A stretch of DNA of 64,000 bases from Candidatus Pyrohabitans jungbluthii (GCA_002010065.2 MTMD02000011.1:1-64000); one strand, 5' to 3'. Shown: positions 35,706-42,602, numbered from the stretch's first letter. Notes: generated by a model not told the origin, from the letters alone. A program made the numbers and translations.

Positions 35706-35867
35706 TAAAATTCCTCCATCAGAGTGATTCAGATAAAAATCTCTTAAGGTCTTTACTGCCCTACCGTTAAAAAAGTTTTTGGAGAGGCTTGGTATGTTTG
35801 AGTGGTAGCCAAAGTTAAAAAACTCTCAAATGATACAAAATATATAAATAAGTGTTAAGTAAAACCC

Positions 35868-35908: not shown

Positions 35909-36463
35909 ATGGAAGATTCCACTGAAAATGCGGCTGTTCAAGCCTGCGAGGTGAGGAAGAAAACTCAGTGGCGTGTTTTTTGGGCGCTTGTGATTCTTGT
36001 AGTGGGTCTTGTCCTATTTATGCCGGTGAAGCTTATAACAACTGAGCGGGGCTACCCTGCTTTGTGGTTCATTGCCTACACAGCATTTGCGATTTCAGCC
36101 TTCATAGTTCTTGGCGGGCTTATAATGAAAAAGCGCTGCCTGCCTGCGGTTCCACCTCCTTTTATTAAGAGCGTGAGTGAGGTGGAACAACCTTTACCTG
36201 GCGATGTCGAAGTGGAGCTTTCACCTGAGGATAGGGAACTCCTTTACAGCATAAAGGAGCTTATTAACTGGTTTGAAGAGGAAAAAATCAGGAAAGCAAG
36301 GTACCACGATTACCGTGCTCGCGTTGCCGAACTTGAGCGCTGGTTGAGGATGGGTATAAAGAAGGACATCGAGATAAGAAATCTCAGAAAGGAACTAAAG
36401 CAGCTTAAGGAGGAGCTTGAGAGGGTGAGGGCAGCCCACAATGAAGGTAGAGAAACTTCTTGA
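35909..36463 (+). CDS. Two-TM/coiled-coil membrane protein, paralog A of the sensory island
   Basis: A 184-residue protein with a short cytoplasmic N-terminus, two helices (about 25-45 and 58-79) and a cytoplasmic coiled-coil tail. The tail contains SPEDRELLYSIKELINWFEE and ELERWLRMGIKKDIEIRNLR. It is clearly paralogous to the minus-strand gene at 41300-41860. The ELERW..M/L pattern also matches the signalling helix ending the next gene. No known family name. ATG after GGGGGTGAGG; overlaps the globin-sensor start by 23 bases. A sensory or scaffold role is inferred from context. Confidence 0.75.
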   Translation: MEDSTENAAVQACEVRKKTQWRVFWALVILVVGLVLFMPVKLITTERGYPALWFIAYTAFAISAFIVLGGLIMKKRCLPAVPPPFIKSVSEVEQPLPGDVEVELSPEDRELLYSIKELINWFEEEKIRKARYHDYRARVAELERWLRMGIKKDIEIRNLRKELKQLKEELERVRAAHNEGRETS

Positions 36464-37472
36464 AAAAGACTGGGAGACTCTTAAAAGCTACCTTGAAATC
36501 ACTAGAGAGGATGAAAAGAGGCTGGAGAAAATAGGTGAGGTGCTGCTCAGGCAACATAAGGAGATACTCGATCTTTTTTATGAGCACCTCTTGAGCTTCG
36601 ACGAGACATCGCGTTTTTTCCCCAGGGAGGTGAGCGTAGAGAAGGTTAAACTCAAGCAGATGGAATACTTCAAGAGACTGACTCAGGGCAACTACGACTT
36701 GGAATACCTTAGGGATAGAACCAGAGTTGGCATAGCCCACGACCGCATCACCTTGCCTGCGCGTTGGTACCTTGGCGCCTACAGGAAGTACCTGGAGCTG
36801 CTGATGCCCCAGATATGTAAAGCTCTGTTTCCGGGCAGTGAAAAGGTGCTCCATTATATTGAGAGCCTGCTGAAGGTGATCTTCCTCGACATGGTTGTTG
36901 CGATAGAGACCTACATCGCTCTGCGCGAAGGCAAGCTGCAGGAAAGCAGGGAGCACTTCAAGAGGATATTCGAAGGCGCAAACGATGCTATATTCCTCAT
37001 CCGCACCGATTATGTAATAGAGGATGCAAATCCCGCCGCACTAAAATTGCTGAAGCTTGACAGAAGCGACGTGGTGGGAAAGAAATGTTATGAGATTATC
37101 CACGGGAGTAAGAGCATGTGCACTCAGGTGCCATGCACAATTAAAGAGGTGCTGGAGAAGGGTGAGGTGCATGGAGTTATACACAAACATTACGACTGCG
37201 ATGGCAATGCAATAACCGTCGAGATATCCGCCTCAGGGATAAGGGACAGCGAGGGCAACATAGTAAAAGTGGTTGAGTCTGCAAGGGATATAACTCCGAG
37301 GGAGATGGTGAGGAAGGAACTTGAAAAGCACATCGCCGAGCTTGAGCGCTGGCAAAAGATGACCGTGGAAAGGGAATTGAGGATGGTTGAGCTTAAGGAG
37401 GAGAACCGCAGGTTAAGAGAGGAGCTGAACAGGCTGAAGAAGCTGTGTGCCAATATAGAAGGGGATGAGTAG
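36441..37472 (+). CDS. Globin-coupled sensor: protoglobin-PAS protein
   Basis: A 343-residue cytosolic sensor. Residues 1-165 form a protoglobin/HemAT-like globin fold. H100 in RVGIAHDRITLPARWYLGAY is the expected proximal heme ligand, so it should bind O2, CO or NO. A PAS domain spans about 170-290 with cysteines 216, 227 and 232, and a helix (ELERWQKMTVERELRMVELK) ends the protein. There is no kinase, methyl-accepting or cyclase output. It is likely to signal to the adjacent histidine kinase, whose start overlaps its stop. Confidence 0.85.
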   Translation: MKVEKLLEKDWETLKSYLEITREDEKRLEKIGEVLLRQHKEILDLFYEHLLSFDETSRFFPREVSVEKVKLKQMEYFKRLTQGNYDLEYLRDRTRVGIAHDRITLPARWYLGAYRKYLELLMPQICKALFPGSEKVLHYIESLLKVIFLDMVVAIETYIALREGKLQESREHFKRIFEGANDAIFLIRTDYVIEDANPAALKLLKLDRSDVVGKKCYEIIHGSKSMCTQVPCTIKEVLEKGEVHGVIHKHYDCDGNAITVEISASGIRDSEGNIVKVVESARDITPREMVRKELEKHIAELERWQKMTVERELRMVELKEENRRLREELNRLKKLCANIEGDE

Positions 37473-39495
37473 CACGCCGACCCAGAGAAGAAGTACCGAA
37501 AAGGAGATTCTTAAAAGGATGTACGCCACCCTGAGCGGGATAAACCATGCGATTATCCATGCGAAGACGCGAGAAGAACTCTTCGAGGAGGCGTGCAGAG
37601 TAGCGGTTGAAAAGGGCAGGTTCAGGATGGCATGGATTGGCGTGGTAGAGGGAAGCGTGGTCAAGCCGGTTGCAGTGCGTGGACATGTGGCTGGTTACCT
37701 TGACAAAGTAAAAATTTCTTTAGAAGCTGTGTCTTCAGGGAGAGAACCTACGGGAAGGGCGATAAAGGAAGGCAGGATAGTTATAAACCCGGACACCAGA
37801 ACCAACCCCGAGGTGGGGCCATGGAGGGAGGAGATGCTCAAGCGGGGCTATCTCTCCTCTGCGGCTATCCCTCTCAGGGAGGGGGACAGGGTAATAGGCG
37901 CTTTCAACCTCTATGCCTCTGAGCCTGGTTTTTTCGATGAGGAAGAGGTTGCCCTGGTTGAGCAGCTCGCCCAGGACATATCCTTTGGTCTGGACCATAT
38001 TAAAAAGCTGGAGGAGCTCAGGGAAAGCGAATTAAGGTACAGAATGCTGGTGGAAACCTCACCCTTCGCTGTGGTACTCTTCTCTGAAGGCAGGATTGTA
38101 TATGCCAATCCGGCGGCAGTGAAGCTTGCGGAGGCATCGAGTTTGGAGGAGCTTCTGGACAAGCATGTGCTTGAGTTTGTACTCCCCAAATATCATTCCC
38201 TTGTTCAGGAGAGAATCAAGCGGGTGGGAAGGGGTGAGATTGCCCCTCCTGCGGAGATGGAGCTACTAACGCTGAGGGGCAATGTTGTTGTGGCTGAGGT
38301 GATGGGTTCGCCTGTAATCTACCAGGGAAAGCCTGCGATTCAGTTAGTTATCCGCGACATCACCGAACACAAAAAGGCGGAGGAGAGGATTAAGGAGCTA
38401 TCCCAGTTTCCTGAGAAGAACCCAAATCCAATTTTCAGGGTGAGAAAAGACGGCGAAATTCTGTACCACAACCCAGGGGTGTTTAACTATGTCAGCGACG
38501 CCAAGGATGTCAGGAACCTCCTGCCCCCCAACTACGAAGAGCTGGTGAGAAGGGCATGTGACTCAGGAGAGGAAATCAGAGCAGAGCACAGGTTCGGAGA
38601 CAGGTACATCGATTACATCATTTTACCTGTTTCTAAAACAGTGGCTCATATTTATGGGAGGGATATAACCGAGAAGAAGCGAGCCGAAGAGGAGCTAAAG
38701 AGGTATGCGGAGGAGCTTGAGAAGAGCCAGAAGGCTCTTCTGAACATACTCGAAGATGAGCGTGAGGCAAGGGAGAAATTGGAGAAGGCTTATGGGGAAC
38801 TCAAGACGCTGGATACGCTGAAGGATGACATCATCGCCAACGTGAGCCACGAACTTCGCACTCCGATGACCATAGCCAAGGGTTTTGCGGAACTCGCCCT
38901 AGATGAGCAGAATGAAGAGGAACGCAAAAAAGAGCTTATGAAGATACTCGAGGCACTTGAAAAGCAGAACGCAATAATAGGCGACCTCATTGCCATGGCA
39001 GAAGCATCCAAAGAAAAGCTTAAGCTTCGCAGTTCCCACTTCTCCATTAAAGATTTAATTTCGCATGCCATTGTGGAGAAAAAGAAGGACATATCCAAGA
39101 AGGGCATTAAACTGGAGCTTCAGGTGGAAGATTTTGATGTTAAGGGAGATTTCGACAAACTCAAGCATGCGCTTATAAATCTCATAGACAACGCCATAAA
39201 GTTTAACCGTCCGCAGGGTAAAATATTAATAAAAGCCCGAAAGGGGAAGAACAGTGCAATTATCTCGGTGAGCGACACGGGTATAGGGATACCTGAGAAC
39301 CTCTTACCAAAGATCTTTGAGCCTCTCTTCCAGGGTGATGCCTCCATAAAGCGCAAGTATGGAGGCACGGGAATGGGGCTTGCAGTGGTAAGAACCATAG
39401 TCGAGGCACATGGCGGTGAAGTTTATGCGGAGAGCACCCCTGGTGAGGGTTCAACATTTACACTGGTGCTCCCTTTGGGGGCTGGAGGTGGATGA
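37465..39495 (+). CDS. GAF-PAS-PAS sensor histidine kinase
   Basis: A 676-residue soluble kinase: GAF about 20-180, PAS1 about 187-305, PAS2 about 308-405, coiled coil to 450, and a HisKA domain with phosphoacceptor H462 in NVSHELRTPM. The HATPase shows an N-box NLIDNAIKF (572-580), G1 DTGIGIPE, the F motif FEPLFQGDAS and G2 GGTGMGLAV. There are no transmembrane segments, so input is cytosolic or comes through the globin sensor. It overlaps its neighbours on both sides, implying coupled expression. Confidence 0.93.
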   Translation: MSSTPTQRRSTEKEILKRMYATLSGINHAIIHAKTREELFEEACRVAVEKGRFRMAWIGVVEGSVVKPVAVRGHVAGYLDKVKISLEAVSSGREPTGRAIKEGRIVINPDTRTNPEVGPWREEMLKRGYLSSAAIPLREGDRVIGAFNLYASEPGFFDEEEVALVEQLAQDISFGLDHIKKLEELRESELRYRMLVETSPFAVVLFSEGRIVYANPAAVKLAEASSLEELLDKHVLEFVLPKYHSLVQERIKRVGRGEIAPPAEMELLTLRGNVVVAEVMGSPVIYQGKPAIQLVIRDITEHKKAEERIKELSQFPEKNPNPIFRVRKDGEILYHNPGVFNYVSDAKDVRNLLPPNYEELVRRACDSGEEIRAEHRFGDRYIDYIILPVSKTVAHIYGRDITEKKRAEEELKRYAEELEKSQKALLNILEDEREAREKLEKAYGELKTLDTLKDDIIANVSHELRTPMTIAKGFAELALDEQNEEERKKELMKILEALEKQNAIIGDLIAMAEASKEKLKLRSSHFSIKDLISHAIVEKKKDISKKGIKLELQVEDFDVKGDFDKLKHALINLIDNAIKFNRPQGKILIKARKGKNSAIISVSDTGIGIPENLLPKIFEPLFQGDASIKRKYGGTGMGLAVVRTIVEAHGGEVYAESTPGEGSTFTLVLPLGAGGG

Positions 39496-39866
39496 AAATG
39501 CCAAAGGTTCTGGTGGTGGATGACGAGCGTGACATGCTGAGGCTCGTAAAGAATATACTTAGTGGAGAGTTTGAGGTAATTGAGGCTGAGAGTGGAGAGA
39601 AAGCCCTGAAGCTTGTAGAAAAGGAGATGCCTGACATAATCCTTCTCGACATAATGATGCCGGGCATGGACGGGTGGGATTTTCTGGAGAAGTTCCGCAG
39701 GCTCGAAGGCGCGGAGCGTGTGCCTGTGATAATGTTCACTATACGCAGTGAAGCCAGCGAGGTGCTCTCAGGCATGGCTGTGGAGGGTGTGGTGGACTAC
39801 ATAACAAAGCCCTTTGACCCTGAAGACCTTAAGATGCGCATTAGGCGGGCGATAAAAAATGAGTGA
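39492..39866 (+). CDS. Single-domain response regulator
   Basis: A 124-residue CheY-like receiver. The acidic pocket is D10/D11, the phosphoacceptor is D53 in LLDIMMPGMDGW, and the conserved Lys lies in YITKPFDP. There is no output domain. It is the probable partner of the upstream kinase. Its 3' end overlaps the secretion-type ATPase by eight bases, so the two are produced together; direct interaction is conjecture. Confidence 0.93.
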   Translation: MKMPKVLVVDDERDMLRLVKNILSGEFEVIEAESGEKALKLVEKEMPDIILLDIMMPGMDGWDFLEKFRRLEGAERVPVIMFTIRSEASEVLSGMAVEGVVDYITKPFDPEDLKMRIRRAIKNE

Positions 39867-41322
39867 TATTGAGTCGCGGGTAGTTACTGTGGGAAACAGA
39901 TATTTCTACAAGATTGAATTTCCCACCCTCACGCCTAAAGAGATGAAGTTTCTGAAGAAGGTGAAAGAGGCAGCGATAAAGGAGGCGAGGGTTGATCTGC
40001 AAGGTTTAACGAAGGAGCAGATGAAGCAGCGCATGCTATTCGCAGTGCTTGAGATAATGGACAGGCTTAATGGCGACCTGGAGCTCTCGCCAGAGAAGAG
40101 GCAAAAGCTTGCGGAGCTTATTGTCAATGACATGGTGGGCTACGGCTTGCTAGAACCCATTCTCGAAGACGACGAGATTGAGGAGATAATGGTAATTGGC
40201 CCCAAGCGCCCGGTGTATGTGTTTCACAGGAAGTACGGAATGCTTGAAACGAACGTGGTTTTCCAAGATCCCAGGGAGATTGTGAACATCGTACAGCGAA
40301 TAGCTTCCAGCATTGGCAGGCGCATAGACGCATCTTCGCCTCTCCTGGATGCTCGTCTTCCAGACGGCTCCCGCGTCAACGCCACTCTAAGCCCACCCGC
40401 CCTTGATGGACCAACAGTAACCATAAGGAAGTTCAAAAAGGATCCGCTCACGATAGTTGACCTGCTGAAGTTCAACACCCTCAATAGCGAGGTCGCAGCC
40501 TTTTTGTGGCTCATGGTCGAGGGGATGGGGGTATGGCCTAAGAACATCCTTGTGGCTGGCGGCACCGGAAGCGGAAAAACCACTACTCTAAACGCCCTTG
40601 CAATTTTCATCCGCGAGCGCGAGCGCGTTATTACCATTGAAGATACCGCAGAGCTTCAGCTTCCAATAAAGCATCTCATAAGGTTTGAGGTACGCCCCCC
40701 GAGCATAGAGGGGAAGGGCGAGATAGACATGGACACCCTGCTTAAAAACACGCTGCGAATGCGCCCCGATAGAATAATCATAGGCGAGGTCCGTGGAAGT
40801 GAGGCAAAAACGCTTTTCACAGCCATGAACACTGGGCACAACGGCACCCTAGCGACGCTTCATGCAAACAGCGCGAGAGAATGCATTACGCGCTTGACAA
40901 ATGAACCCATGGGTGTTCCAATGATAATGATTCCTGCACTGGATTTGATTGTGATGCAGGCGAGGTACGCCCATGAAAAGAAAGGGTTAATAAGAAGAGT
41001 AACAGAGGTAACAGAGGTTGGTGGGATTACTGACAGTACCGTGGCTCTCAGCAAAATTTACGAGTGGGACCCGGGCAGTGATGTTATAAGGAGCACTGGC
41101 ACGCCAAGCACGCTGAAGCAGGAGCTTGCCAAGCAGGTTGGCATCTCCATAGAGGAGGTGAATGAAGAGTTTGAGAAGAGGAGGCTTGTTCTGGATTACC
41201 TGCTTGAAAACAACATTAGGGAGATTTACGAGGTGCGCAGGTGGGTGGAGAGCTATTACACCAACCCTGAGGCCACGCTGAAGAAGATTGAGGAATCCCT
41301 TAAGGCTTCGACTCGCTCATAG
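39859..41322 (+). CDS. Type II/IV secretion-family ATPase (CpaF/TadA-like)
   Basis: A 487-residue hexameric-type ATPase that powers pilus assembly, archaellum rotation or secretion in relatives. It has an N-terminal domain (about 80-200), Walker A GGTGSGKTT (234-242), an Asp box near EDTAELQLP, Walker B RIIIGEVRG (305-313) and a His box TGHNGTLATLHA (325-336). No platform protein (FlaJ/TadC) or prepilin gene is nearby, so it is an orphan here. The last 23 bases overlap the convergent paralog gene. Confidence 0.88.
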   Translation: MSDIESRVVTVGNRYFYKIEFPTLTPKEMKFLKKVKEAAIKEARVDLQGLTKEQMKQRMLFAVLEIMDRLNGDLELSPEKRQKLAELIVNDMVGYGLLEPILEDDEIEEIMVIGPKRPVYVFHRKYGMLETNVVFQDPREIVNIVQRIASSIGRRIDASSPLLDARLPDGSRVNATLSPPALDGPTVTIRKFKKDPLTIVDLLKFNTLNSEVAAFLWLMVEGMGVWPKNILVAGGTGSGKTTTLNALAIFIRERERVITIEDTAELQLPIKHLIRFEVRPPSIEGKGEIDMDTLLKNTLRMRPDRIIIGEVRGSEAKTLFTAMNTGHNGTLATLHANSARECITRLTNEPMGVPMIMIPALDLIVMQARYAHEKKGLIRRVTEVTEVGGITDSTVALSKIYEWDPGSDVIRSTGTPSTLKQELAKQVGISIEEVNEEFEKRRLVLDYLLENNIREIYEVRRWVESYYTNPEATLKKIEESLKASTRS

Positions 41323-41860
41323 ACTTCGACTCGTGCTTCTTACTAAGCTCCCTTACCTTTCTTTTCAGGTTGCGTATTGTTATGTCCTTGCTTATCCCCA
41401 GTCTGTACCACCGCTCTATCTCTTTAATCCTCTCCTGTGGATTTCTGAGTCGAATTTCCTTTATCAACGCCTCCCGATACCAGCGCTCAAGCTCCTTTAG
41501 GCTTTCCAGAAGTTCTTGGTCTTCCGGGTCGAGCCTAATCTTCTCGTATCCATTCCCTGCGGCTCTCTTTTCTAGGTCCTCTATCTGCTTTCTTACATTG
41601 TAGAGGGATTCTCCTGCGATGTGCATGTGACTTCTTACCATACCTCCGTAAAGTAGAAATGTTCCAAAAGCAATGGCGGTGTAGACAACAAACCAGGTTT
41701 TAACCTCACCCCCTGCTATTACGGCATCGAGGGGTAGAAGGAGCAAAAGTCCTATAAAGATTGCTACATTCAGCCAGAAAATTCGCCATATAATCTTTTT
41801 CTTTCTTTCCACTCTTCTTAGCTCTTTTTCAAGTATAAGTTCTGCTGCATCTTCACCCAT
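41300..41860 (-). CDS. Two-TM/coiled-coil membrane protein, paralog B of the sensory island
   Basis: A 186-residue paralog of the gene at 35909. It has two helices (about 25-45 and 58-78), then DPEDQELLESLKELERWYRE and IKEIERWYRLGISKDITIRN, which align with paralog A. It closes the island from the other side in reverse orientation. MGEDAAELI is taken as start; seven codons upstream an alternative exists. A perfect 7-bp palindrome at 41930-41945 lies between its promoter and the divergent next gene. Confidence 0.75.
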   Translation of the reverse strand: MGEDAAELILEKELRRVERKKKIIWRIFWLNVAIFIGLLLLLPLDAVIAGGEVKTWFVVYTAIAFGTFLLYGGMVRSHMHIAGESLYNVRKQIEDLEKRAAGNGYEKIRLDPEDQELLESLKELERWYREALIKEIRLRNPQERIKEIERWYRLGISKDITIRNLKRKVRELSKKHESKSMSESKP

Positions 41861-41929
41861 TATCCCACACCTTCTGGTCACCTATGTAGGTTATGGTATT
41901 TAAAAATTTTCGTATAGCTATTTCTTTCT

Positions 41930-42005: not shown

Positions 42006-42602
42006 ATGAGAGTGGTGCGCGCTGTTGGGGTTCTCAATCTTCTGCTGGGCTTGGTGGCGCTTTTAGCTCCGGTTAAGTTTTACTCCTTTGCGATGCGTCT
42101 CTTTACGCCAGACGTCTCTCCGCCCTTTGGTGTTGGTGCAATCCGCCTGACCACCTTTATGCTCTTTATTCCCAGCTTGGTGCTAATAGCCAACGGCGTT
42201 GCACTGCTTTTCTTGAGCTACAGACTTGAAACTCCTGCTAAGACCGCTTCACCCGCAACGCAGGAGTATTTGAGAAGGTTGAGGAAAGAGGAAGGTTTAG
42301 AGCCTGGCGAAGCTGAGAAGGATTTTGAGCTCTTTGAAGGAGAAGCGAGGGAGGAGCTTGAGGAGACCCCGGGCTATGCACTCTCCCAAGGCGAGGAGTA
42401 CGTGAAGGTCAGGCACGAGATGATAGGGAAGGAAGTATACGACAGAAGGGGCAACTACTACGGCAAGGTTGTGAGCGTTACCCTGAGCGAGGAGGGCGAT
42501 GTGAAGGAGTTTCTGGTCAAGCGTGGTGAAAGGAAAAAGGTTTTCAGTGGTGAAGACATAGAGAGCAACAATGGTGTGATTCTGGTTAGGCGTCAGGAGT
42601 AG
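42006..42602 (+). CDS. Two-TM protein with C-terminal PRC-barrel domain
   Basis: A 198-residue protein: N-terminal helices at about 7-24 and 48-73, an acidic linker, then a PRC-barrel (about 130-198: HEMIGKEVYDRRGNYYGKVV). PRC-barrels occur in RimM and in archaeal proteins including CdpB-type division proteins; the role here is unknown. A TATA box CTTTATATGG is about 33 bases before the ATG. Confidence 0.7.
   Translation: MRVVRAVGVLNLLLGLVALLAPVKFYSFAMRLFTPDVSPPFGVGAIRLTTFMLFIPSLVLIANGVALLFLSYRLETPAKTASPATQEYLRRLRKEEGLEPGEAEKDFELFEGEAREELEETPGYALSQGEEYVKVRHEMIGKEVYDRRGNYYGKVVSVTLSEEGDVKEFLVKRGERKKVFSGEDIESNNGVILVRRQE

Follow-up and report, generated by a model that had tools for sequence, protein, structure and literature searches.

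Five overlapping genes from a Hydrothermarchaeota species, a member of a genus of hot-vent archaea, encode a membrane hairpin protein (parA), a kinase-less protoglobin-PAS sensor, a soluble histidine kinase (HK), a single-domain receiver (REC) and a CpaF/TadA-type ATPase, and we found this set kept in 5/5 genomes of the genus. The sensor and the par proteins share a C-terminal coiled-coil tail. We give about even chances to the reading that the set is a phosphorelay, in which the tails of the kinase-less sensor and the par proteins would dock on the separate HK and REC would control a type IVc (Tad/CpaF-type) pilus motor.

Gene layout and protein families

The window, by which we mean the whole analysed stretch of 64,000 nucleotides, is contig 11 of a 1.99 Mb genome (G000). 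Six genes at 35909-41881, the five above and a convergent paralog of parA, are all present where the original prediction had placed them, in overlapping order and with the two paralogs in opposite orientation:

35840 to 35849, plus strand: TATA-like promoter element ATATATAAAT, picked by eye on its consensus match alone
35909 to 36463, plus strand: parA, membrane hairpin (two TM helices) and cytosolic coiled coil; tail at 36299-36430
36441 to 37472, plus strand: kinase-less protoglobin-PAS sensor; protoglobin at 36462-36917, PAS at about 36981-37295, tail at 37308-37436
37465 to 39495, plus strand: HK, soluble; GAF-PAS-(PAS-like)-HisKA-HATPase_c
39492 to 39866, plus strand: REC, single-domain receiver with the DD, D and K signature residues
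39859 to 41322, plus strand: CpaF/TadA-type pilus motor ATPase (T2SSE, 174 bits)
41300 to 41881, minus strand: parB, paralog of parA, convergent; tail at 41324-41449

From parA through the sensor, HK and REC to the ATPase, each gene overlaps the next in the same direction by 4-23 nt, which suggests a translationally coupled operon, and the 3' end of the ATPase gene overlaps parB by 23 nt. The TATA-like element lies within an A+T-rich stretch about 60 nt 5' of the parA ATG. For parB, the ATG at 41860 is the likelier start. Downstream of the cluster, a gene for a PRC-barrel membrane protein (42006-42602 in the window) is found in 5/5 genomes.

HK and REC carry the sequence hallmarks of a two-component system. 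HK combines HisKA (53 bits) and HATPase_c (111 bits) in one protein together with GAF_2 (83 bits), its H-box NVSHELRTP contains the phospho-accepting His, and no TM segment is evident in it. REC, with 124 aa, matches Response_reg at 100 bits and presents the Asp in LLDIMMPG and the Lys in TKPF. The window sensor matches the Pfam families Protoglobin (120 bits) and PAS_9 (63.5 bits) and lacks a kinase domain. The His of its protoglobin domain is present in a VGIAHDRI..WY motif; heme binding, like the ligand, is a prediction. G003 yields a partial protoglobin match and G002 none, the proximal His also being missing from G002; the PAS domain, the tail and the operon persist in both. Gas sensing would therefore be a trait of some species and not of the system, and the idea of gas or redox sensing as a constant part of it was not supported. 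A second protoglobin protein (300 aa) is encoded elsewhere in the genome (G000:C1:33382-33840; L063 5942-6844), and no tail was detected in it.

The ATPase has Walker A (GGTGSGKTT), Walker B (RPDRIIIGEVRG) and His box (TLATLHANS) motifs. It had been described as a secretion-type ATPase; the kind is CpaF/TadA rather than a generic secretion ATPase. Its best solved relatives are CpaF (8rkd, 1e-87) and 2oap, ahead of FlaI, and within its own genome it is 56% identical to a tandem ATPase encoded beside TadB/TadC and 33-34% identical to two ArlI proteins. In the tree, the ATPases of the window genus form one clade (100/100) with those of G006 and G008, and the tandem and ArlI clades are separate. 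The ATPase stays below the cut-off of the NCBIfam TadA-type model TIGR03819 (256 vs 373 bits), to which the tandem ATPase of the genome scores 514 bits over two domains. We rejected an assignment as ArlI/FlaI, for which it reaches 329 of the 550 bits needed and from which it is separate in the tree; the true ArlI pair (G000:C6) scores 707-711 bits against the FlaI model. The operon holds no TadB/TadC platform, pilin or prepilin peptidase gene, and T2SSF occurs in the genome only at G000:C2 and C6.

Several other loci were noted. At G000:C2 (L048 7061-10315), two TadA-type ATPases are fused head to tail into a protein of 1084 aa beside TadB/TadC-like genes, a fusion also found in most genomes of the phylum. 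G000:C6 (L047 5809-9125) holds ArlH, ArlJ and two adjacent ArlI genes, each of the two ArlI scoring above the curated cut-off. Stand-alone CpaF-type ATPases of other Hydrothermarchaeota (L115, L116, L117, L120, L114) adjoin KaiC-family genes, a pairing that recalls ArlH beside ArlI. At G000:C1 (L108 6353-12668), an MCP gene precedes genes for two HEAT-repeat-like proteins and one MinD-like ATPase.

The C-terminal tail and the par family

The tail is a C-terminal coiled-coil module of ~40 residues with the consensus ELERW..L.VGREL.M.ELK..I.EL. The original prediction had pointed to a resemblance between the par tails and the end of the globin-PAS protein, and an HMM built from the par tails alone indeed gave sensor C-termini as its top-ranking matches outside the par family (E 3.7e-6, 9e-4, 0.015). 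Four globin-PAS orthologs of the genus align over nearly the whole par-tail model with 3-7.5 bits, the best reversed sequence reaching 3.7 bits. These scores alone are marginal; the position, the ungapped length and the stronger tails of other sensors show that the likeness is more than chance. Against a joint model, which includes that tail by construction, the window globin-PAS tail scores 63 bits.

The joint model detected the tail in 11/23 genomes of the phylum and in 30/394 archaeal genomes sampled, and none was found in plasmids. The 56 sensor proteins with a tail comprise PAS, GAF-PAS, REC-PAS, CBS and HAMP-type proteins as well as EB_dh membrane proteins. The tail forms the end of the protein in all 56 (median 3, maximum 17 residues beyond), and an HK domain is present in none of them. 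The next co-directional gene encodes an HK for 14 of the 56, and an HK is encoded within the next three genes for 23. After removal of orthologs, about 10/52 have an HK next, against about 1.5% expected (binomial 4e-9), a value that overstates the linkage because PAS sensors cluster with kinases anyway; the expectation is based on 28 HK-type genes among an assumed 1,900 genes, and the sample mixes species. Half or more of the tail sensors, above all those of family f6, have no adjoining HK. The ERT motif of an S-helix directly precedes the tail in about 10/56, so that the tail stands where a kinase domain normally follows. The simplest reading of the tail, drawn from these sequence features, is a putative docking module for a separate kinase.

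We also considered the tail as an S-helix itself and rejected this assignment, as ERT is found in the core of 0/56 sensor tails and the tail is terminal in 56/56 instead of lying between two signalling domains. Loci in which the ERT motif is followed by the tail include L062, L175, L178, L206, L208, L210, L211 and L214; at L210 (G275:C13), a single contig encodes five tail proteins, of which four are clustered within 6 kb. In parB and its orthologs, a degenerate second copy of the tail motif lies just before the tail (41441-41518, minus strand, ELERWYREALIKEIRLRN). Tail strings were not found in open-access papers, where a description in other words is possible.

The two proteins framing the cluster are true paralogs, as had been proposed, with 34% identity across 176 aa (pairwise E=6e-26) and with two TM helices and a coiled coil in both. 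The sequence of each predicts a membrane hairpin with a helical, cytosolic region after it, and the positive-inside rule places both ends of parA inside. Neither matches any Pfam or NCBIfam family above cut-off, and a Pfam search found no MCPsignal domain in them, true MCPs being encoded elsewhere. AlphaFold models of the par family contain four to five helices only, with a mean pLDDT of 69 and a pTM of 0.42, a confidence too low for use as a structure-search query. No relatives outside the genus were found in 84,980 species or in viral contigs.

The par family consists of five copies in three loci, with orthologs in the genus: parA/parB in the window, parC (G000:C8) and the tandem parD/parE (G000:C9). 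Each locus adjoins HK or CheA; by a rough estimate based on the 28 HK-type domains in the genome, the chance of one locus lying <2 kb from such a domain is ~8% and that of three ~6e-4. The original prediction had named paralogs lying mostly far from sensors as the finding that would speak against it, and every par copy was found beside an HK or in a chemotaxis operon. The parC operon reads HK-CheY-CheA-CheC-CheD-parC-ArlC/D/E-ArlF/G-like (three)-ArlB (G000:C8 ~363-373 kb, L045), where parC separates CheD from the ArlC-D/E fusion in G000, G001, G002 and G004, and follows CheD in G003. The parD/parE pair (L059) adjoins a GAF histidine kinase and a receiver, with no motor there. The window type of ATPase is thus present at one of the three par loci, another holding archaellum filament and chemotaxis genes and the third HK and REC only, and a general tie of par to this ATPase was not supported.

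The proposed phosphorelay and competing explanations

The conservation of the set that the original prediction required was found throughout the genus, where parA-sensor-HK-REC-ATPase is flanked in 5/5 genomes by eS1 on one side and the PRC-barrel protein and GatA on the other; REC of G003 was counted from an HK-ATPase gap of fitting size, the ORF call there being a spurious frame. The predicted bracketing by two paralogs was confirmed in part, as parA is present in 5/5 genomes and parB in three (G000, G001, G004), being absent from G002 and G003. The output end is better conserved, with genus identities of 81-90% for the ATPase and 73-86% for REC, than the input end with 40-76% for globin-PAS and 52-77% for parA. 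A two-component link to this ATPase, as predicted, also recurs outside the genus. In another genus of the same family (G006; L112), REC (65%) precedes the ATPase (61%) by 2 nt, with no HK, sensor or par near the pair, and in G021 the gene immediately upstream of a related ATPase (57%) encodes an HK; for the ATPase of G008, the upstream side is a contig end. REC is the most persistent partner of the ATPase and more conserved than par. Because G006 keeps the REC-ATPase pair without HK, sensor or par, and HK adjoins the ATPase in G021, this pair is the oldest visible part. The sensor, HK and par appear to be input that was acquired later or is specific to the lineage, and par, missing at the G006 pair, cannot be needed for the core link. 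An ATPase adjoining a CBS-tail protein in G014 (L061) was rejected as a second case and taken as chance, because the intervening genes belong to unrelated metabolism and the ATPase to another clade.

In the phosphorelay that we propose, the C-terminal coiled-coil tail of the sensor would act in trans, docking on the coiled-coil region of the separate cytosolic HK from the adjacent gene. As membrane hairpins with a divergent copy of the sensor tail, parA and, in the species that have it, parB would recruit HK or the sensor-HK complex to the membrane, or compete with the sensor for HK. HK would phosphorylate REC, and phosphorylated REC might bind or position the adjacently encoded ATPase, thereby switching the pilus motor on or off. 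As no platform is encoded in the operon, we infer that the ATPase presumably serves the distant TadB/TadC platform at G000:C2. REC could, however, act on another target than the ATPase.

It is rather unlikely, in our estimate, that the cluster is an ordinary two-component operon with a passenger, in which the sensor, HK and REC have other targets, the ATPase does no more than share their transcript, and the par proteins are tethers or pseudo-receptors for the kinase. REC-only proteins make up about 40% of archaeal response regulators, mostly without a known target (PMC5847659), and par occurs at two other loci without this ATPase, as such an operon would allow. Against it stand the second genus, which keeps the REC-ATPase adjacency without HK or sensor, the HK-ATPase adjacency in G021, and the position of REC and the ATPase as the best conserved parts.

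We regard as distinctly doubtful a broader combination of two claims: that the par proteins are lineage-specific membrane adaptors joining two-component signalling to pilus and archaellum motors, with parC replacing CheF, and that the tail is a general undescribed plug docking archaeal kinase-less sensors on separate HKs. An improbable explanation is that the par proteins are membrane adaptors on the motor side, through which pilus and archaellum motors would receive signals, parC taking the role of CheF in connecting CheY with the ArlC/D/E ring. CheY-P is known to be linked to ArlCDE by CheF (PMC9126983), and CheF (PF04283) was detected in 0/5 genus genomes by a search that was positive in three control archaea, despite the MCPs, two che clusters and archaellum motor genes of the genus. 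The position of parC near ArlC-D/E and the parA/parB flanks of the motor ATPase also fit motor-side adaptors. However, parD/parE accompany HK and REC without a motor, and the association of the tail family is with sensors and HKs rather than with motors. In addition, the par proteins have no PF04283 match and do not resemble CheF, the genus could have adaptors of another, diverged kind, and most of the phylum likewise gave no CheF match, in a survey that did not extend to archaellum content. That the ATPase drives secretion or DNA transfer instead of a pilus is very improbable: the T2SSE family does include GspE, VirB11 and TrbB, and the NCBIfam models TrbB and VirB11 give 177 and 165 bits, both under cut-off, but CpaF is the best solved relative, no conjugation genes lie near and the nearest ATPase relatives in the genome sit with TadB/TadC-like platform proteins.

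If the proposed phosphorelay is true, it would represent direct two-component control of a pilus-type motor in archaea, with the target of the receiver encoded alongside, where most archaeal lone receivers lack an assigned target (PMC5847659). The tail would allow kinase-less sensors to be assigned to kinases in archaeal genomes. The apparent absence of CheF despite archaellum and chemotaxis genes makes the route from CheY to the motor testable with one candidate, parC.

Comparison with known signalling systems

Each part of the set is of a known kind, and we found no description of the set, of par or of the tail in the open-access literature, a search that leaves most subscription papers outside. 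In the H-NOX/HnoK and NosP/NahK systems, the heme sensor is a protein of its own that acts in trans on an HK encoded alongside. The set described here differs from them by the protoglobin-PAS sensor, the conserved C-terminal tail and the putative output to a pilus-type ATPase. The globin-coupled histidine kinase (PDB 5ohe) and HemAT (1or4) likewise sense through a protoglobin-type domain in two-component or chemotaxis signalling, whereas the window globin is not fused to a kinase or MCP domain. The S-helix, like the tail, is a coiled coil of about 40 residues adjoining PAS domains. It has a central ERT and sits between two domains (PMC1592074), whereas the tail lacks ERT, is C-terminal and is preceded by an S-helix where one is present.

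In the archaeal CheY-CheF-ArlCDE pathway, the signal of a receiver reaches a FlaI-family motor (PMC9126983), as that of REC might reach the ATPase. Unlike in that pathway, no CheF was detected in the genus, the window ATPase is not ArlI, and CheF works via the ArlCDE ring. In the Pil-Chp system of Pseudomonas (ChpA, PilG/PilH, PilB), an HK with single-domain receivers controls a type IV pilus ATPase (PMC12632253), as is proposed for the present set; no direct PilG-PilB contact had been reported for it (PMC11656802). Pil-Chp features a CheA-type kinase, an MCP and the cofactors FimX/PilZ; the present set has instead an ordinary HK, a CpaF-type ATPase, a kinase-less sensor, par, and overlapping REC and ATPase genes. 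Among working systems, Pil-Chp comes closest to a receiver that acts on a pilus ATPase.
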